A DNA stretch of 64,000 bases from Bacteroidia bacterium. Lineage in GTDB: Bacteria > Bacteroidota > Bacteroidia > Bacteroidales > UBA932. The stretch is from contig SABC01000004.1 of assembly GCA_009929175.1 (NCBI GenBank), positions 1 through 64,000 of the forward strand, read 5' to 3'. The notes below the pieces were generated by a model. The model was not told where the DNA came from. It saw nothing but the letters and a program-made list of their open reading frames with translations, and ran no database searches. The translations under genes and the position numbers were made by a program. Shown piece after piece: positions 8,428 to 15,717 of the stretch. Each line of letters opens with the position of its first letter. The stretch's first letter is position 1.

Positions 8428-11400
8428 ATGGCATTTTTTACAGATGTGCTCAAAAAGTTTTTCGGCACAAAATCGGATAGGGATATTAAATTGATTCGCC
8501 CATACGTGGACAAGACGATCGCTGCCTACGATAGGATAGACAAATTGACCCACGATGAGCTGAGGACCGAAAGTTTCCGGATTAAAAAGATAATCACCGA
8601 CAGGATTGCTGCTGACGAAGAGAAAAAGAGGTCCCTTCGCGAACGTCTGGAAGATGTGATGATAGATGTGAAGGAAAAGGAGGAGTTGGCAACTGAAGTC
8701 GATAAACTCTCCAAAAAGATAGATGAGAATATTGAGGAAGTTCTCCTGGAGATATTACCCGATGCTTTTGCAATAATGAAGTCTACCGCGCGCCGTTTCA
8801 AGGAGAACGAAAAGGTTGTGGTAAAGGCTCTGGATTTTGACAGGGACCTTGCAGCAATGCAGGATTTCGTTTCCATTGAGGGAGATAACGCTGTATGGAG
8901 CAATAGTTGGGTTGCCGGCGGAAACAAGATTGTATGGGATATGGTCCATTACGATGTGCAGCTTATTGGTGGTGTTGCCCTCCACCAGGGCAAGATTGCC
9001 GAGATGGCGACGGGTGAGGGTAAGACCCTGGTAGCCACTCTGCCCGTATTCTTAAATGCTTTGGCCGGAAAGGGTGTTCATGTGGTGACTGTCAACGACT
9101 ATCTCTCCAAACGTGACTCGGAGTGGATGGGACCGCTATACCAGTTCCACGGATTAAAGGTGGATTGCCTGGACAGGCACCAACCTAACTCCGAAGCTCG
9201 TAAAAAGGCATACAGGGCAGATATCACTTTTGGAACAAACAACGAGTTCGGATTTGATTACCTGCGTGATAACATGGCAATCAATGCCGAAGACTTAGTC
9301 CAGAAAAAGCATCACTTTGCTATTGTGGATGAGGTTGACTCTGTGTTGATCGATGATGCAAGGACTCCGCTTATAATATCGGGTCCGGTACCTAAAGGGG
9401 ATGAACAGCAGTTCAACGAATACAAACCAATTGTTGAGAAGCTCTACAGTGCACAAAGAGCACTTGTTACCCAACTCCTCAATGAAGCTAAAACTAAGCT
9501 TAAGGAAGGGAACGAAGAGGAGGGCGGAAAGCTTTTACTCAGGGCCCACAAGGGACTTCCCCGCTATAACCCGCTTATTAAGTATTTGAGTGAGGCAGGC
9601 AGCAAGCAGATACTGATTAAAACCGAGAACTTCCATATGCAGGACAATAACAAACAGATGCATCTGATTACGGATGACCTCTTCTTTGTTATTGACGAAA
9701 AACAGCGTTCTGTAGAGCTGACCGATAAAGGTCATGAACTGATTGCAAAGAGTGTCAGTGACAACAAATTCTTTATTCTGCCCGATATTGGCACGGAGAT
9801 TTCCGAAATTGAAAAAAGTGATATATCTCCCGAAGAGAAGCTTGCAAAAAAAGATGCCCTTTTGAGTGATTATGCAGTAAAGAGTGAAAGGGTGCACACA
9901 GTCAATCAGTTACTTAAGGCATATACAATGTTCGAAAAGGATGTCGAGTACGTTGTAATGGATAACAAAATCAAGATTGTGGATGAACAGACCGGGCGTA
10001 TTCTGGAGGGGCGGAGATATTCAGACGGCCTCCACCAGGCAATCGAGGCCAAAGAGTCTGTTAAGATTGAGGCGGCTACTCAGACTTTTGCTACTATCAC
10101 CCTGCAAAACTACTTTAGGATGTACCACAAGCTTGCCGGTATGACCGGTACGGCTGAGACCGAAGCTGGTGAGTTCTGGTCAATTTACAAGCTGGATGTG
10201 GTGGTTATTCCAACCAACCGCCCTATAGTACGTAAGGATTTGGATGACTTGATATTCAAAACCAAGAGGGAAAAATACAATGCAGTTATCGATGAGATTG
10301 TTAAGTTAACCAAGGATGGAAGGCCTGTATTGGTTGGTACCACATCGGTAGAGGTTTCGGAGCTGTTAAGCAGGATGTTAAAACTCAGAGGTATTAAGCA
10401 TAATGTGCTAAACGCCAAACAACACGCAAGGGAGGCCGAGATTGTTGCAGAGGCGGGGCAACCGGGAGCTGTGACTATAGCAACCAACATGGCGGGACGT
10501 GGAACGGATATAAAATTGGGAAACGGAGTAAAGGAGGCCGGCGGACTGGCAATCATTGGTACGGAAAGACACGATTCCCGAAGGGTGGACAGGCAGTTAA
10601 GGGGACGTGCAGGACGTCAGGGAGACCCTGGTTCTTCAAGTTTTTATGTATCACTTGAGGATGACCTTATGCGCCTGTTTGGATCGGAGAGGATTGCAAA
10701 TATTGTTGACAGGATGGGTATGAAGGAGGGTGAGGTGCTCCAGCACTCCATGCTTTCCAAATCCATAGAGAGGGCCCAAAGAAAGGTAGAGGAGAATAAT
10801 TTTGGAATCAGGAAAAGGCTTCTGGAGTACGATGATGTCATGAATTCCCAAAGAGAGGTGATTTACACACGCAGGAGGAATGCTCTCTACGGGGAAAGGA
10901 TCGATGTGGATATCAGGAATATGATGACCGATTACACCGAATCACTTGTGAACTCTTCCCATGGTAATTTGTCTTTTGATGAGTTTTCTTATGAGACCAT
11001 AAGGCATCTCTCGATGGAGCCGGGAATCTCCGGTGAAGTTTACGAGAAGGAGAGTGCTGCAGAAGTTGCGGCAAAACTCCTGGAGAATGTACAAAACTCA
11101 CATAAACGAAGGGTGGATACCATGGTCAGTCAGGCTTGGCCAATTGTTAAACAGGTTTATGAAACCCAAAGTGCCACATACGACAATATTGCAATTCCGG
11201 TAGGTGACGGGAGCAAGATCATGCAAACCGTTGTAAACCTCAAAAAGGCTTATGATACCAAAGGGCTTGAGATTGCCAGGTCACTGAACAAAAGTATCAC
11301 CCTCATGATGATTGACGAATATTGGAAAGAGCATCTCAGGGATATGGATGACCTCAAACAATCTGTACAGAATGCAACCTACGAACAAAAGGATCCGTTA

Positions 11401-11715
11401 TTGATATACAAATTTGAGAGCTTTAAACTTTTTCAGGAGATGCTGGATAAAGTGAACAAGGATGTCCTGAGCTTCCTTCTGAAAGCACACATTCCTCTCA
11501 GGGATGTTCAAAACGATCCTTCCAGGCTAAGGCAGGAACAGAGGCGCAAGACGGACCTTTCCAATATGCAAACTTCCCGATCGGATCTGGTGACCTCTTC
11601 GGGGGAACCAAAATCCCAGGCTCCTGTACATGTTGAGAAGAGGGTTGGACGAAATGATCCATGTCCATGCGGGAGCGGGAAAAAATTCAAAAACTGCCAT
11701 GGTGCGGCAGAATAG
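8428..11715 (+). CDS. secA: Preprotein translocase subunit SecA
   Basis: [45 protein letters not shown]-terminal zinc motif [17 protein letters not shown]. Confidence 0.98.
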
Positions 11716-11756: not shown

Positions 11757-13145
11757 ATGTATGATGTATTGATAATAGGCTCAGGACCCGGAGGATATGT
11801 TGCAGCAATAAGGGCAGCACAATTAGGTTTGAGCACTGCCGTAATCGAAAAATCAGAACTGGGCGGCGTATGCCTCAATTGGGGGTGTATCCCAACAAAA
11901 GCCCTTTTAAAAAGTGCCCAGGCGATGCACTATGCAAAAAACTTCAAGGATTATGGTTTCACAATAGAGGGAGATGTAAAACCCGATATCAAAGCAATTG
12001 TAGAGAGAAGCCGTGGAGTTGCTGCCGGTATGAGCCGTGGGATAGAGTACCTTTTCAAGAAAAACGAGGTGAATGTGATCAACGGTTTTGGCAAAATCAT
12101 AGCAAAAGGGGAGGTAGAGGTTACCTCCGTCGACGGAACCAAAGAGATATACAAAGCCAGGAACATCATAATTGCAACAGGCTCCAGGGCCAATTCCCTG
12201 CCCTTTGCTCCCATAGACGGGAAGAAGATAATATCGTACCGTCAGGCACTTGTTCCTGAGTCAATACCTACATCTATTGCAGTGATAGGATCAGGAGCAA
12301 TAGGCAGCGAGTTTGCTTTTTTCTACAAATCCCTGGGTTCCCAAGTCTACCTTATTGAGTATTTACCATCCATTGTTCCGATGGAAGATGATGAGGTCTC
12401 GGCTCAGTTGAGCCGCTCTTTCCGTAAGATGGGTATGAAGGTGATGACCTCTGCACAGGTTAAGAGTATTGATACCAAGGGAGAAAATTGCAGACTTACA
12501 ATTGAAACCAAAAAGGGGGAGGAGGTGATTGAGACCCAAATGGTCCTCTCTGCAGTCGGGGTTGTTGCCAATATTGAAAATATCGGCATAGAAGAGCTCA
12601 ATATAGCAACTGAAAAAGGGAAAATCAAAGTAGATAACTATTATTCTACTTCAGTAGAAGGTATTTATGCAATCGGAGATGTGATTGCTACACCAGCCCT
12701 TGCACACGTAGCGTCGGCAGAGGCAATTGTTTGCGTGGAGCGTATAGCCGGTCACAACCCCAAACCTTTGAACTATACTAATATACCTGCTTGCACCTAC
12801 ACCTCCCCGGAAATTGCATCGGTAGGAAGTACCGAGAGAGCTTTGAAGGAGAGTGGTACCGATTATAAAGTAGGCAAGTTTCCTTTTACTGCATCAGGAA
12901 AGGCGACTACATCGGGTGAAAGGGACGGGTTTGTCAAACTCCTGACAGATCCTGTAAGCGACAAGATACTTGGTGCACACCTTATTGGCGCAAATGTCAC
13001 CGAGATGCTTTCGGGAATCGTAACAGCACGCACAATGGGTGCAACTGCAAAGGATATCATGGGTTCCATCCATCCTCATCCAACCATGAGTGAAGCCATT
13101 ATGGAGGCTGCAGCCGCCTCCCACGGCGAAGTTATTCACATTTAA
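11757..13145 (+). CDS. lpdA: Dihydrolipoyl dehydrogenase
   Basis: FAD motif GSGPGGYVAAIRAAQLG, redox GGVCLNWGCIPTKALL, HPHPTMSEA C-terminal motif. Confidence 0.96.
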   Translation: MYDVLIIGSGPGGYVAAIRAAQLGLSTAVIEKSELGGVCLNWGCIPTKALLKSAQAMHYAKNFKDYGFTIEGDVKPDIKAIVERSRGVAAGMSRGIEYLFKKNEVNVINGFGKIIAKGEVEVTSVDGTKEIYKARNIIIATGSRANSLPFAPIDGKKIISYRQALVPESIPTSIAVIGSGAIGSEFAFFYKSLGSQVYLIEYLPSIVPMEDDEVSAQLSRSFRKMGMKVMTSAQVKSIDTKGENCRLTIETKKGEEVIETQMVLSAVGVVANIENIGIEELNIATEKGKIKVDNYYSTSVEGIYAIGDVIATPALAHVASAEAIVCVERIAGHNPKPLNYTNIPACTYTSPEIASVGSTERALKESGTDYKVGKFPFTASGKATTSGERDGFVKLLTDPVSDKILGAHLIGANVTEMLSGIVTARTMGATAKDIMGSIHPHPTMSEAIMEAAAASHGEVIHI

Positions 13146-13156
13146 CAACAAGAGGT

Positions 13157-13558
13157 ATGTCTAAGAACGAAGTTACAACCCAGGTAAATGATGTAAACAG
13201 GATCTCTTCGGGGACGGAATTTCACGGAGTACTAAATTCTAATGCCGATATCAGGATTGATGGTTTTTTTGAAGGTAAAATAACCACTACAGGCAAACTG
13301 GTGATAGGAGACTCCGCCAGGATGGTGGGAGAGGCCATTGCGAAAAGCTGTGACATTTGGGGGGAGATGGAGGGCAAGGTCCTTCTAAAGGAGTTCTTTG
13401 GCCTTAGGAAAACCGGGACATTCAAAGGAAAGGTCGCTTGTCATAAAGTGTTTATCGAAGATGGCGGTTACTTTAACGGTAGTTGCAAGATAATCACTCC
13501 GGAAGAGTTTGAAGGTAGTATCAAAGCCTTAGAAAATGACGGCAAGGAGATTTTTTAG
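13157..13558 (+). CDS. Bactofilin family polymer-forming cytoskeletal protein
   Basis: ISSGTEFHGVLNSNADIRIDGFFEGKITTTGKLVIGDSARMVGEA beta-helical bactofilin core. Confidence 0.92.
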   Translation: MSKNEVTTQVNDVNRISSGTEFHGVLNSNADIRIDGFFEGKITTTGKLVIGDSARMVGEAIAKSCDIWGEMEGKVLLKEFFGLRKTGTFKGKVACHKVFIEDGGYFNGSCKIITPEEFEGSIKALENDGKEIF

Positions 13559-13570
13559 TTTTGTAATTAC

Positions 13571-13607
13571 AAAAAAAAGGCTGCAGTTTTTATTGCAGCC
13601 TTTTTTT
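13571..13607. terminator. Bidirectional intrinsic terminator between bactofilin and actin-like genes
   Basis: AAAAAAAAGGCTGCA-loop-TGCAGCCTTTTTTT. Confidence 0.85.
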
Positions 13608-13621
13608 ATGGAATATTCAGA

Positions 13622-14713
13622 CTATTCGGCAGTTGATTTATGGTATACAGCTACCGATGTATTGGCGTTTCCTATGTCTATGCCAAGGTAAGCAGGTTTG
13701 TCCGGGTTTTCAGTAGAGAAGACTCCGTCTTTTTCGTTGACAGAATGGTTTAACTTAGAGTAAAGGGCATAACCGGTTGACGCGCATTTCTCGGGGTTTT
13801 CAAATACTGTGATATTCAAAAGTTCTCCAAACTCCTTGCGGAACATCTCAAGAAGGTCTTTGTGGTTGGCTCCGCCACCGGCAAGGACAAGCTTGTCCAC
13901 TGATTCAAAATCCTGGTCCGAAATGTAACGCCTGATAGCAGGAGATACAACGTTGTTGTAATACATTTCCAAAGACATCTTCTTTTCATTGGAGAAATCC
14001 CTCCTTTTGCGGTTCACATACATGAATCCTTTGGTAAAGAGGTGGTCCACCTGGTGTTCTGTGCGCATAGAAAGGTATGTGTGCTTGGATAACTCCTGGG
14101 AGAAGAGGTTTACAGCGTAACTTATGCCATGAGTACTGAAAAGTGTTCGTACCGACAGGCCTTCGGGTGTACTGACAGCTCCTTCGCATGTTCCGTAACC
14201 AAGACTGATAATAAGGAAATTACCTCCTAAAGGGTTTTCGCCTTTGCGGACAGCCGTATCGCAGCCAACCAGCTCCGGTATAATATTTACTTCGCTGATT
14301 GATACTATCCTCTGTTCGGATGTCAAAATACCATCGTCACTTGATTTGAAGTATGAAATGATTTTCTCATCCTTCAGGTAGTGCTCGGCGGCTTCTTTGT
14401 TGAACTGATAAGTTGCATAGGGAAATCCGGTTGTGATTATCATCTTTGGGATCCAACCGTTCTTAACCTCAGACTGCAATGCATTGTTTGCCACTACCAG
14501 GGCAGCTTGCGTGATTATTTTGTAGTCAAGGTCTTCCGGCATAGGATTTATGAACTTATGAGGGGATACCCCATCATTAAGGGCATGGAGACCAACAAGG
14601 TAGTCCACTCCTTCGAATTTCAATTTTGAGAAACCAAGTATCGGATCATTGCTGGTAGCAAAATCCCTTAACGTTGATTCGTACACGCTTGGAAAAGAAT
14701 ATGTTTTTATCAT
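13622..14713 (-). CDS. ParM/StbA-like actin-family ATPase with circularly permuted motif order
   Basis: Motif order from N-terminus: YSFPSVY, DYLVGLHAL, MIITTGFPYATYQFNKE, FLIISLGYGTCEGAV (phosphate 2), VDKLVLAGGGANHKDLLEMF (adenosine), then C-terminal PAYLGIDIGNANTSVAVYHKSTAE (phosphate 1); ATG at 14713. Confidence 0.85.
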   Translation of the reverse strand: MIKTYSFPSVYESTLRDFATSNDPILGFSKLKFEGVDYLVGLHALNDGVSPHKFINPMPEDLDYKIITQAALVVANNALQSEVKNGWIPKMIITTGFPYATYQFNKEAAEHYLKDEKIISYFKSSDDGILTSEQRIVSISEVNIIPELVGCDTAVRKGENPLGGNFLIISLGYGTCEGAVSTPEGLSVRTLFSTHGISYAVNLFSQELSKHTYLSMRTEHQVDHLFTKGFMYVNRKRRDFSNEKKMSLEMYYNNVVSPAIRRYISDQDFESVDKLVLAGGGANHKDLLEMFRKEFGELLNITVFENPEKCASTGYALYSKLNHSVNEKDGVFSTENPDKPAYLGIDIGNANTSVAVYHKSTAE

Positions 14714-14763: not shown

Positions 14764-15717
14764 CTATATCCTTTTTTTTATCTTGTAATTATTTCTTTCA
14801 CTGCTGTTTCTGCTGACCAGTTCGGCAACAAACCCCGAAAGGAAGAGTTGCATACCTATAATTAGTGCAACGAGTGAAATGTAAAACAAAGGCTGGTCGG
14901 TTACCTGCCGGAAAGGAAGCCCTTTGGATTGAGTTGCTAACTTTTGGATTATAAGGTAGATAGAGATTACTGCACCAAAGAAAAATGTAAGGGAACCTAT
15001 CAGTCCGAAGAAGTGCATGGGCTTTTTGCCAAACCTGTTGAGAAACCACAACGACAGCAAATCGAGGAATCCGTTTACAAACCGGTCCATACCGAATTTG
15101 CTTTTGCCGAATTTGCGGGAGCGGTGTTTTACTACCTTCTCTCCAATACGGCTAAATCCTGCGTTTTTGCATAAATATGGGATATACCGGTGCATTTCGC
15201 CGTAAACCTCGATGTTTTTGACAACCTCGGCGCGGTATGCTTTGAGTCCGCAGTTCATGTCGTGAAGCTTGATGCCGGTAACACGCCTCGCAGTAGCATT
15301 GTAAATCTTTGAAGGAAGATTTTTACTTAAAAACCCGTCATGACGTTTCTTTTTCCAACCGGAAACAAGATCGTATCCCTCTTCACGAATCATTTTTATT
15401 AGTTGAGGAATCTCCTCCGGACTGTCCTGAAGGTCGGCATCCATCGTAATGACGATATCTCCGGAGGCTGCCTCAAAGCCACAGTAAAGCGCTGCAGATT
15501 TTCCGTAATTCCTGCGAAAACAAATACCCTTTACAGGATAGGATTTGGAAAGCTCCTCTATTGCATTCCATGAACCATCGGTACTTCCGTCATCCACCAT
15601 GATGATTTCATAGGAGAGGCCTTCTCCTTTAAGGGTTTCGGAAATCCAGGGTACAAGCTCTCTGAGGGATTCCTCTTCATTCAAAAGGGATATTACGATA
15701 GACAGATCCATTTCCAT
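14764..15717 (-). CDS. Glycosyltransferase family 2 with two C-terminal TM helices (DPM1/GtrB-like)
   Basis: LSIVISLLNEEESL, MVDDGSTDGSW, DADLQDSPEEIPQLI, GSLTFFFGAVISIYLI. Confidence 0.92.
   Translation of the reverse strand: MEMDLSIVISLLNEEESLRELVPWISETLKGEGLSYEIIMVDDGSTDGSWNAIEELSKSYPVKGICFRRNYGKSAALYCGFEAASGDIVITMDADLQDSPEEIPQLIKMIREEGYDLVSGWKKKRHDGFLSKNLPSKIYNATARRVTGIKLHDMNCGLKAYRAEVVKNIEVYGEMHRYIPYLCKNAGFSRIGEKVVKHRSRKFGKSKFGMDRFVNGFLDLLSLWFLNRFGKKPMHFFGLIGSLTFFFGAVISIYLIIQKLATQSKGLPFRQVTDQPLFYISLVALIIGMQLFLSGFVAELVSRNSSERNNYKIKKRI

Follow-up and report, generated by a model that had tools for sequence, protein, structure and literature searches.

Can a protein of the actin fold carry at its very end the strand with which its relatives begin, and what might such a protein do in the cell? 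To our knowledge, actins, MreB, ParM, Hsp70 and sugar kinases all start with the same phosphate-1 strand. A gene in the window analysed here (that is, the whole stretch of 64,000 nucleotides from a Bacteroidia bacterium) raises the question, given that a sequence-only reading had claimed that its product starts past phosphate-1, carries a phosphate-2-like motif with Ser for Asp and an adenosine-like motif, and ends in a phosphate-1 hairpin (that is, that it is a circularly permuted actin-family protein). The same reading had named a second phosphate-1 at the N terminus, and a frameshift or assembly artefact in homologues, as observations that would speak against it.

Locus and protein layout

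The permuted actin-like gene occupies positions 13622–14713 of the reverse strand and encodes 363 residues from an ATG at 14713; the nearest in-frame stop stands six codons 5′ of this ATG, so that no N-terminal phosphate-1 was missed. The protein begins with MIKTYSFPSV, in which starts SFPSVYE (residues 6–12; 14678–14698, reverse strand), which in ordinary actin-like proteins (ALPs) comes next after phosphate-1; this segment aligns with its counterpart there, and its P, S and E are invariant in a 24-member alignment. The other elements claimed earlier are likewise in place: the phosphate-2-like SLGYGTCE (residues 170–177; 14183–14206, reverse strand; ISLGYGTCE with the preceding residue), in which Ser replaces the usual Asp, and the adenosine-like AGGGA within LAGGGA (residues 278–282; 13868–13882, reverse strand), which aligns with TGGGA of ordinary ALPs. 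A linker (residues 323–340; 13694–13747, reverse strand) then leads from the old C-terminal helix to the phosphate-1 hairpin AYLGIDIGNANTSVAVY (residues 341–357; 13643–13693, reverse strand), which we assign on the basis of the rotation tests below and of five residues (G, D, G, N and T) that never vary in the family. The final residues are AYLGIDIGNANTSVAVYHKSTAE, and phosphate-1 makes up the last ~20 residues. The spacing from the helix motif to GxDxGN is 11–12 residues in most relatives and greater in the window protein.

The surroundings are chromosomal, with secA (8428–11715), lpd (11757–13145), thrS, infC, rpmI and rplT, all named from their sequences. A bactofilin gene on the forward strand (13157–13558; PF04519, 82.5 bits), the putative partner discussed below, converges on the actin gene, and a Pfam-confirmed family-2 glycosyltransferase gene (14764–15717, reverse strand) lies on its other side. 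Between the two convergent genes, an A-run, an inverted repeat (GGCTGCAG / TTGCAGCC) and a T-run can be read at 13571–13607, an arrangement that looks like a bidirectional terminator shared by the bactofilin and actin genes. Another genome of the window's genus (G225) has no actin gene, and there the stops of the bactofilin and glycosyltransferase genes are one base apart (L146, 1065–2451); this empty site implies that the actin gene is dispensable there and that it was gained or lost cleanly.

Motif order across the family

The order is a property of a family. Genome searches turned up homologues in 23 of the 394 genomes searched from the order, in 24 of 398 from the phylum and in 12 of 41 from near relatives, and all 59 distinct full-length sequences, from about 20 Bacteroidota families, have the identical motif order, ending in the C-terminal phosphate-1 as the window protein does. 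One near relative from the genome-collection scan (L001), at 69% identity, has the same ending. Among the 59, GxDxGNxxT stands 6–23 residues before the stop, except in one member whose tail runs to 130 residues. FPS is found 6–52 codons past the preceding in-frame stop in every case, and no DxG motif occurs between that stop and FPS in any of the 59. Residues G344, D346, G348, N349 and T352 are identical in all 59, whereas the preceding linker has a mean of 36%. An assembly artefact or frameshift can be rejected, as many independent genomes agree: the same order is found in genomes of one or few contigs (for example, G696 and G505), and in several carrier genomes the gene sits on contigs of 3.5–5.3 Mb, so the permuted order is not an assembly error. 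The codons upstream of the gene in G207 were considered as a relic phosphate-1 (ALP_N 5–148) and rejected, as that match crosses a stop and the upstream open frame holds no DxG.

Ordinary-order ALPs were absent from the genomes sampled. In 396 Bacteroidota genomes, ALP_N matches fall at 12 places, all of them permuted genes, and the same is true of all ALP_N places in 16 carrier genomes. Outside Bacteroidota, the range of the family was probed only through plasmid, phage and IMG/VR collections and one single-sequence scan; tblastn against 72,556 plasmid and 50,697 phage records, and a family-alignment scan of IMG/VR, found no relatives at the sensitivity used.

Two variants were seen along the way. 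One actin copy (G030:C131; L024/L026) is interrupted by stops and frame changes, a copy in decay. In G168 (L016, L088), a charged extension of ~100 residues continues beyond phosphate-1 and ends in YEPDFS, and relatives from the same family end in FKPAFS or FEPTFS shortly past the hairpin, possibly a conserved C-terminal peptide.

Tests of the proposed permutation

Rotation of the chain (that is, moving the tail to the front) completes the match to known ALPs. In native order, ALP_N matches the window protein with 31.5 bits over profile positions 17–148, and with the tail placed first the match rises to 41.5 bits over positions 1–148. Native family members mostly begin their ALP_N match at profile position 15–21, compared with position 1–2 for five ordinary ParM-type proteins. 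When hhalign was used to compare the family profile with one of 15 ordinary plasmid and phage ALPs, the native order scored 162.3 (E 3.5e-22, 291 columns) and the rotated order 176.5 (E 3.4e-24, 308 columns), compared with 155.8 (E 5.3e-21) when the tail was shuffled and 161.2 (E 3.5e-22) when it was removed; the gain thus appears only when the intact tail is moved to the front. The rotated alignment parallels pSK41 ParM over its full length, through phosphate-1, FPS, connecting GFP, phosphate-2 GYGT and adenosine TGGGA. A 15-column phosphate-1 profile built from ordinary ALPs matches 57 of the 59 members best within the final 10% of the chain; the individual scores are low, as expected at such a length.

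Searches of PDB sequences gave weak matches only. The ParM match there did not improve on rotation (20.9 bits native versus 17.4 rotated, from alignments of different row numbers), and DnaK was matched by the native profile as two pieces in swapped order, the phosphate-1 piece with only 2.7 bits. An AlphaFold model built from just two sequences (the window protein and L001) reached a pLDDT of 33, too low for use. Of the readings considered, sequence speaks most strongly for circular permutation of a ParM-type ALP, as claimed earlier; the chain break would then fall within subdomain Ia, at the turn that joins strands 2 and 3.

Predicted nucleotide site

The replacement of the phosphate-2 Asp, first noticed in the window protein, is family-wide: the position is Ser in 55 of the 59 sequences, Gly in 3, Asn in 1 and Asp in none. 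Elsewhere in the site, the phosphate-1 Asp is invariant (59 of 59), the first two Gly of the adenosine-like motif are kept in all 59, and the later acidic position of the phosphate-2 segment (the final Glu of SLGYGTCE) is Glu throughout. By analogy with the actin/Hsp70 superfamily, a protein that has lost this Asp should still bind nucleotide but hydrolyse it much more slowly. The retained phosphate-1 and adenosine motif predict binding of ATP or ADP with Mg, and the Ser in place of the phosphate-2 acid predicts slow or absent hydrolysis; the permuted actin is thus probably an ATP-binding protein with slow ATPase activity.

Association with bactofilin

The best functional clue to the permuted actin is its association with bactofilin, which, together with the Trp-ended tail of the partner in several genera, goes beyond what had been noted before. 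A six-frame search places a bactofilin adjacent to the actin gene or one gene off in 32 of 59 distinct loci, across 11 family groups, and out of reach in the other 27, and on the tree the neighbour state changes at least 7 times. When the neighbours of the first 40 loci were clustered, bactofilin was near the actin gene in 19, and the runner-up was found in 4, mostly of the window's genus. Genomes carry only 1–7 bactofilins, so chance association is negligible; a rough estimate for association in 11 of 20 families, which are not fully independent, is <1e-22. The placement varies (upstream, downstream, on both sides, with one gene between in f136, and convergent in the window's genus), and genomes related to the window's that have no actin gene retain the bactofilin.

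Individual loci show further forms. G373 has three paralogous loci (L082, L083 and L084) in which the actin gene lies between a short upstream bactofilin and a downstream bactofilin ending in Trp-Trp, and in G258 (L079) the bactofilin upstream of the actin gene has 536 residues and an acidic tail with internal SELSDGRQVELEQSTIKTSLLDENIN repeats.

Where the bactofilin gene lies downstream on the same strand, its product tends to have a long low-complexity tail that ends in Trp (14 of 17 loci; endings NWW, VAW, SLW, NIW, IEW, IDW, RLW and KLW), and two of the 17 end in LF or IF. None of 35 non-adjacent bactofilins ends in Trp. Counted by genus, the Trp end is found in 6 of 7 downstream same-strand cases versus 0 of 20 non-adjacent ones (p about 2e-5), a test that is conservative in counting 33 non-adjacent bactofilins instead of 35. 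Upstream bactofilins, those of f136 with one gene between and the convergent bactofilin of the window have no such tail. On the simplest reading of these sequences, the Trp tail is a partner-binding tail; it could instead be a membrane anchor rather than actin-binding.

The gene of the M23 peptidase LmdC lies beside that of a bactofilin, and the two proteins interact (PMC10945521); on this precedent we read the bactofilin neighbour of the permuted actin as its probable partner. The recurrent link suggests an undescribed two-part actin–bactofilin cytoskeleton in Bacteroidota. We found no paper on a bactofilin–actin operon in the open-access literature, which, being open access only, is weak evidence of absence.

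Proposed model and alternatives

We consider it probable that the gene encodes a naturally permuted ParM-type ALP that binds nucleotide and forms a chromosome-encoded two-component cytoskeleton with bactofilin. In this model, the phosphate-1 hairpin (strands 1 and 2), tethered to the C terminus through a short linker, would most likely fold back to supply the first two strands of Ia and thereby complete the nucleotide site, and the protein would bind ATP or ADP with Mg, hydrolyse it slowly or not at all, and assemble into filaments. Bactofilin would serve as a nucleotide-independent scaffold to which the actin binds, in several lineages probably via the disordered Trp-ended tail, and the actin would add nucleotide-dependent control of position or shape. 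Several observations weigh against this model: 27 loci have no bactofilin in reach, related genomes keep the window's bactofilin without the actin gene, the convergent, upstream and f136 bactofilins have no Trp tail, and phosphate-2 has lost the acid on which hydrolysis normally depends. A quite improbable variant is that each subunit donates its hairpin in trans to the one that follows (that is, donor-strand actin polymerisation), with bactofilin again as the scaffold; if this were true, each nucleotide site of the filament would be common to two chains.

The family could also have given up polymerisation altogether, so that the permuted actin-fold protein binds nucleotide and, in the manner of FtsA or PilM, serves as an adaptor or switch by which bactofilin polymers are recruited or regulated. 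The missing phosphate-2 acid of all 59 members is in keeping with this, as are weak PilM and FtsA profile matches and the statement in PMC12448750 that bactofilin polymerises without nucleotide; however, the closest profiles are those of filament-forming ALPs (ALP_N, PRTRC_D and ParM), not of FtsA or PilM, and we regard such an adaptor as unlikely. Another reading denies the permutation itself and holds that the protein has lost phosphate-1 and now ends in a mimic or a regulatory peptide that binds elsewhere. In its favour are the variable linker and the low pLDDT of the two-sequence AlphaFold model, but the tail is in register with ALP phosphate-1, improves the alignment only when placed first and keeps its Asp, Gly, Asn and Thr in all 59 sequences, which leaves this reading very improbable.

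The same nearest named families (ALP_N, PRTRC_D and ParM) would also fit a ParM homologue that segregates plasmids or chromosomes and has its partner encoded away from the actin gene. Yet the plasmid, phage and IMG/VR searches returned no match, the setting of secA, lpd, thrS and infC is chromosomal, and no ParR-like neighbour recurs, its place being taken by bactofilin; we accordingly give a role in segregation very little credence. A family with phosphate-1 at the end of the chain across much of a phylum shows that the strand order of this fold is not obligatory, and questions of fold order, nucleotide switching and terminus accessibility become testable by comparison.

Comparison with known systems

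The closest likeness is to ParM-type ALPs (ALP_N, PF17989; for example, pSK41 ParM), with which the family shares whole-length profile similarity once rotated; the window protein scores 31.7 bits, above the curated ALP_N cut-off of 26.3. It differs from them in the C-terminal phosphate-1 (59 of 59), in the loss of the acidic phosphate-2 residue, and in being chromosomal, with a bactofilin rather than a ParR-like neighbour and with no plasmid or phage relatives found. Against the ParM equivalog (NCBIfam PRK13917) it scores 28.8, below the curated cut-off of 417. PRTRC system protein D (TIGR03739) matches 3 of 24 permuted members (best E 1.6e-9), but the phosphate-1 of the PRTRC D protein at L136 stands at the start. 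MreB (PF06723) is distant actin-fold kin with a weak match around the adenosine motif, but the score of 14.2 lies below the cut-off of 27, and a full-length MreB is separately encoded in 27 of 27 genomes tested, actin carriers and non-carriers alike.

As for precedents, no permuted actin or ParM was found in the open-access full-text literature (again weak evidence of absence, being open access only), and the texts checked on Cardinium and on the Verrucomicrobiota actin BeeR describe neither a permuted actin nor a bactofilin link. FtsA is an actin-fold protein in which one subdomain is relocated and the phosphate-1 strand is still N-terminal; it thus resembles the permuted family in its altered domain layout, but only the latter moves the phosphate-1 strand itself. 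Bactofilin–LmdC modules offer the parallel on the other side of the proposed pair, with a bactofilin gene clustered with that of its partner (PMC10945521); the partner there is an M23 peptidase, whereas here it is actin-like.
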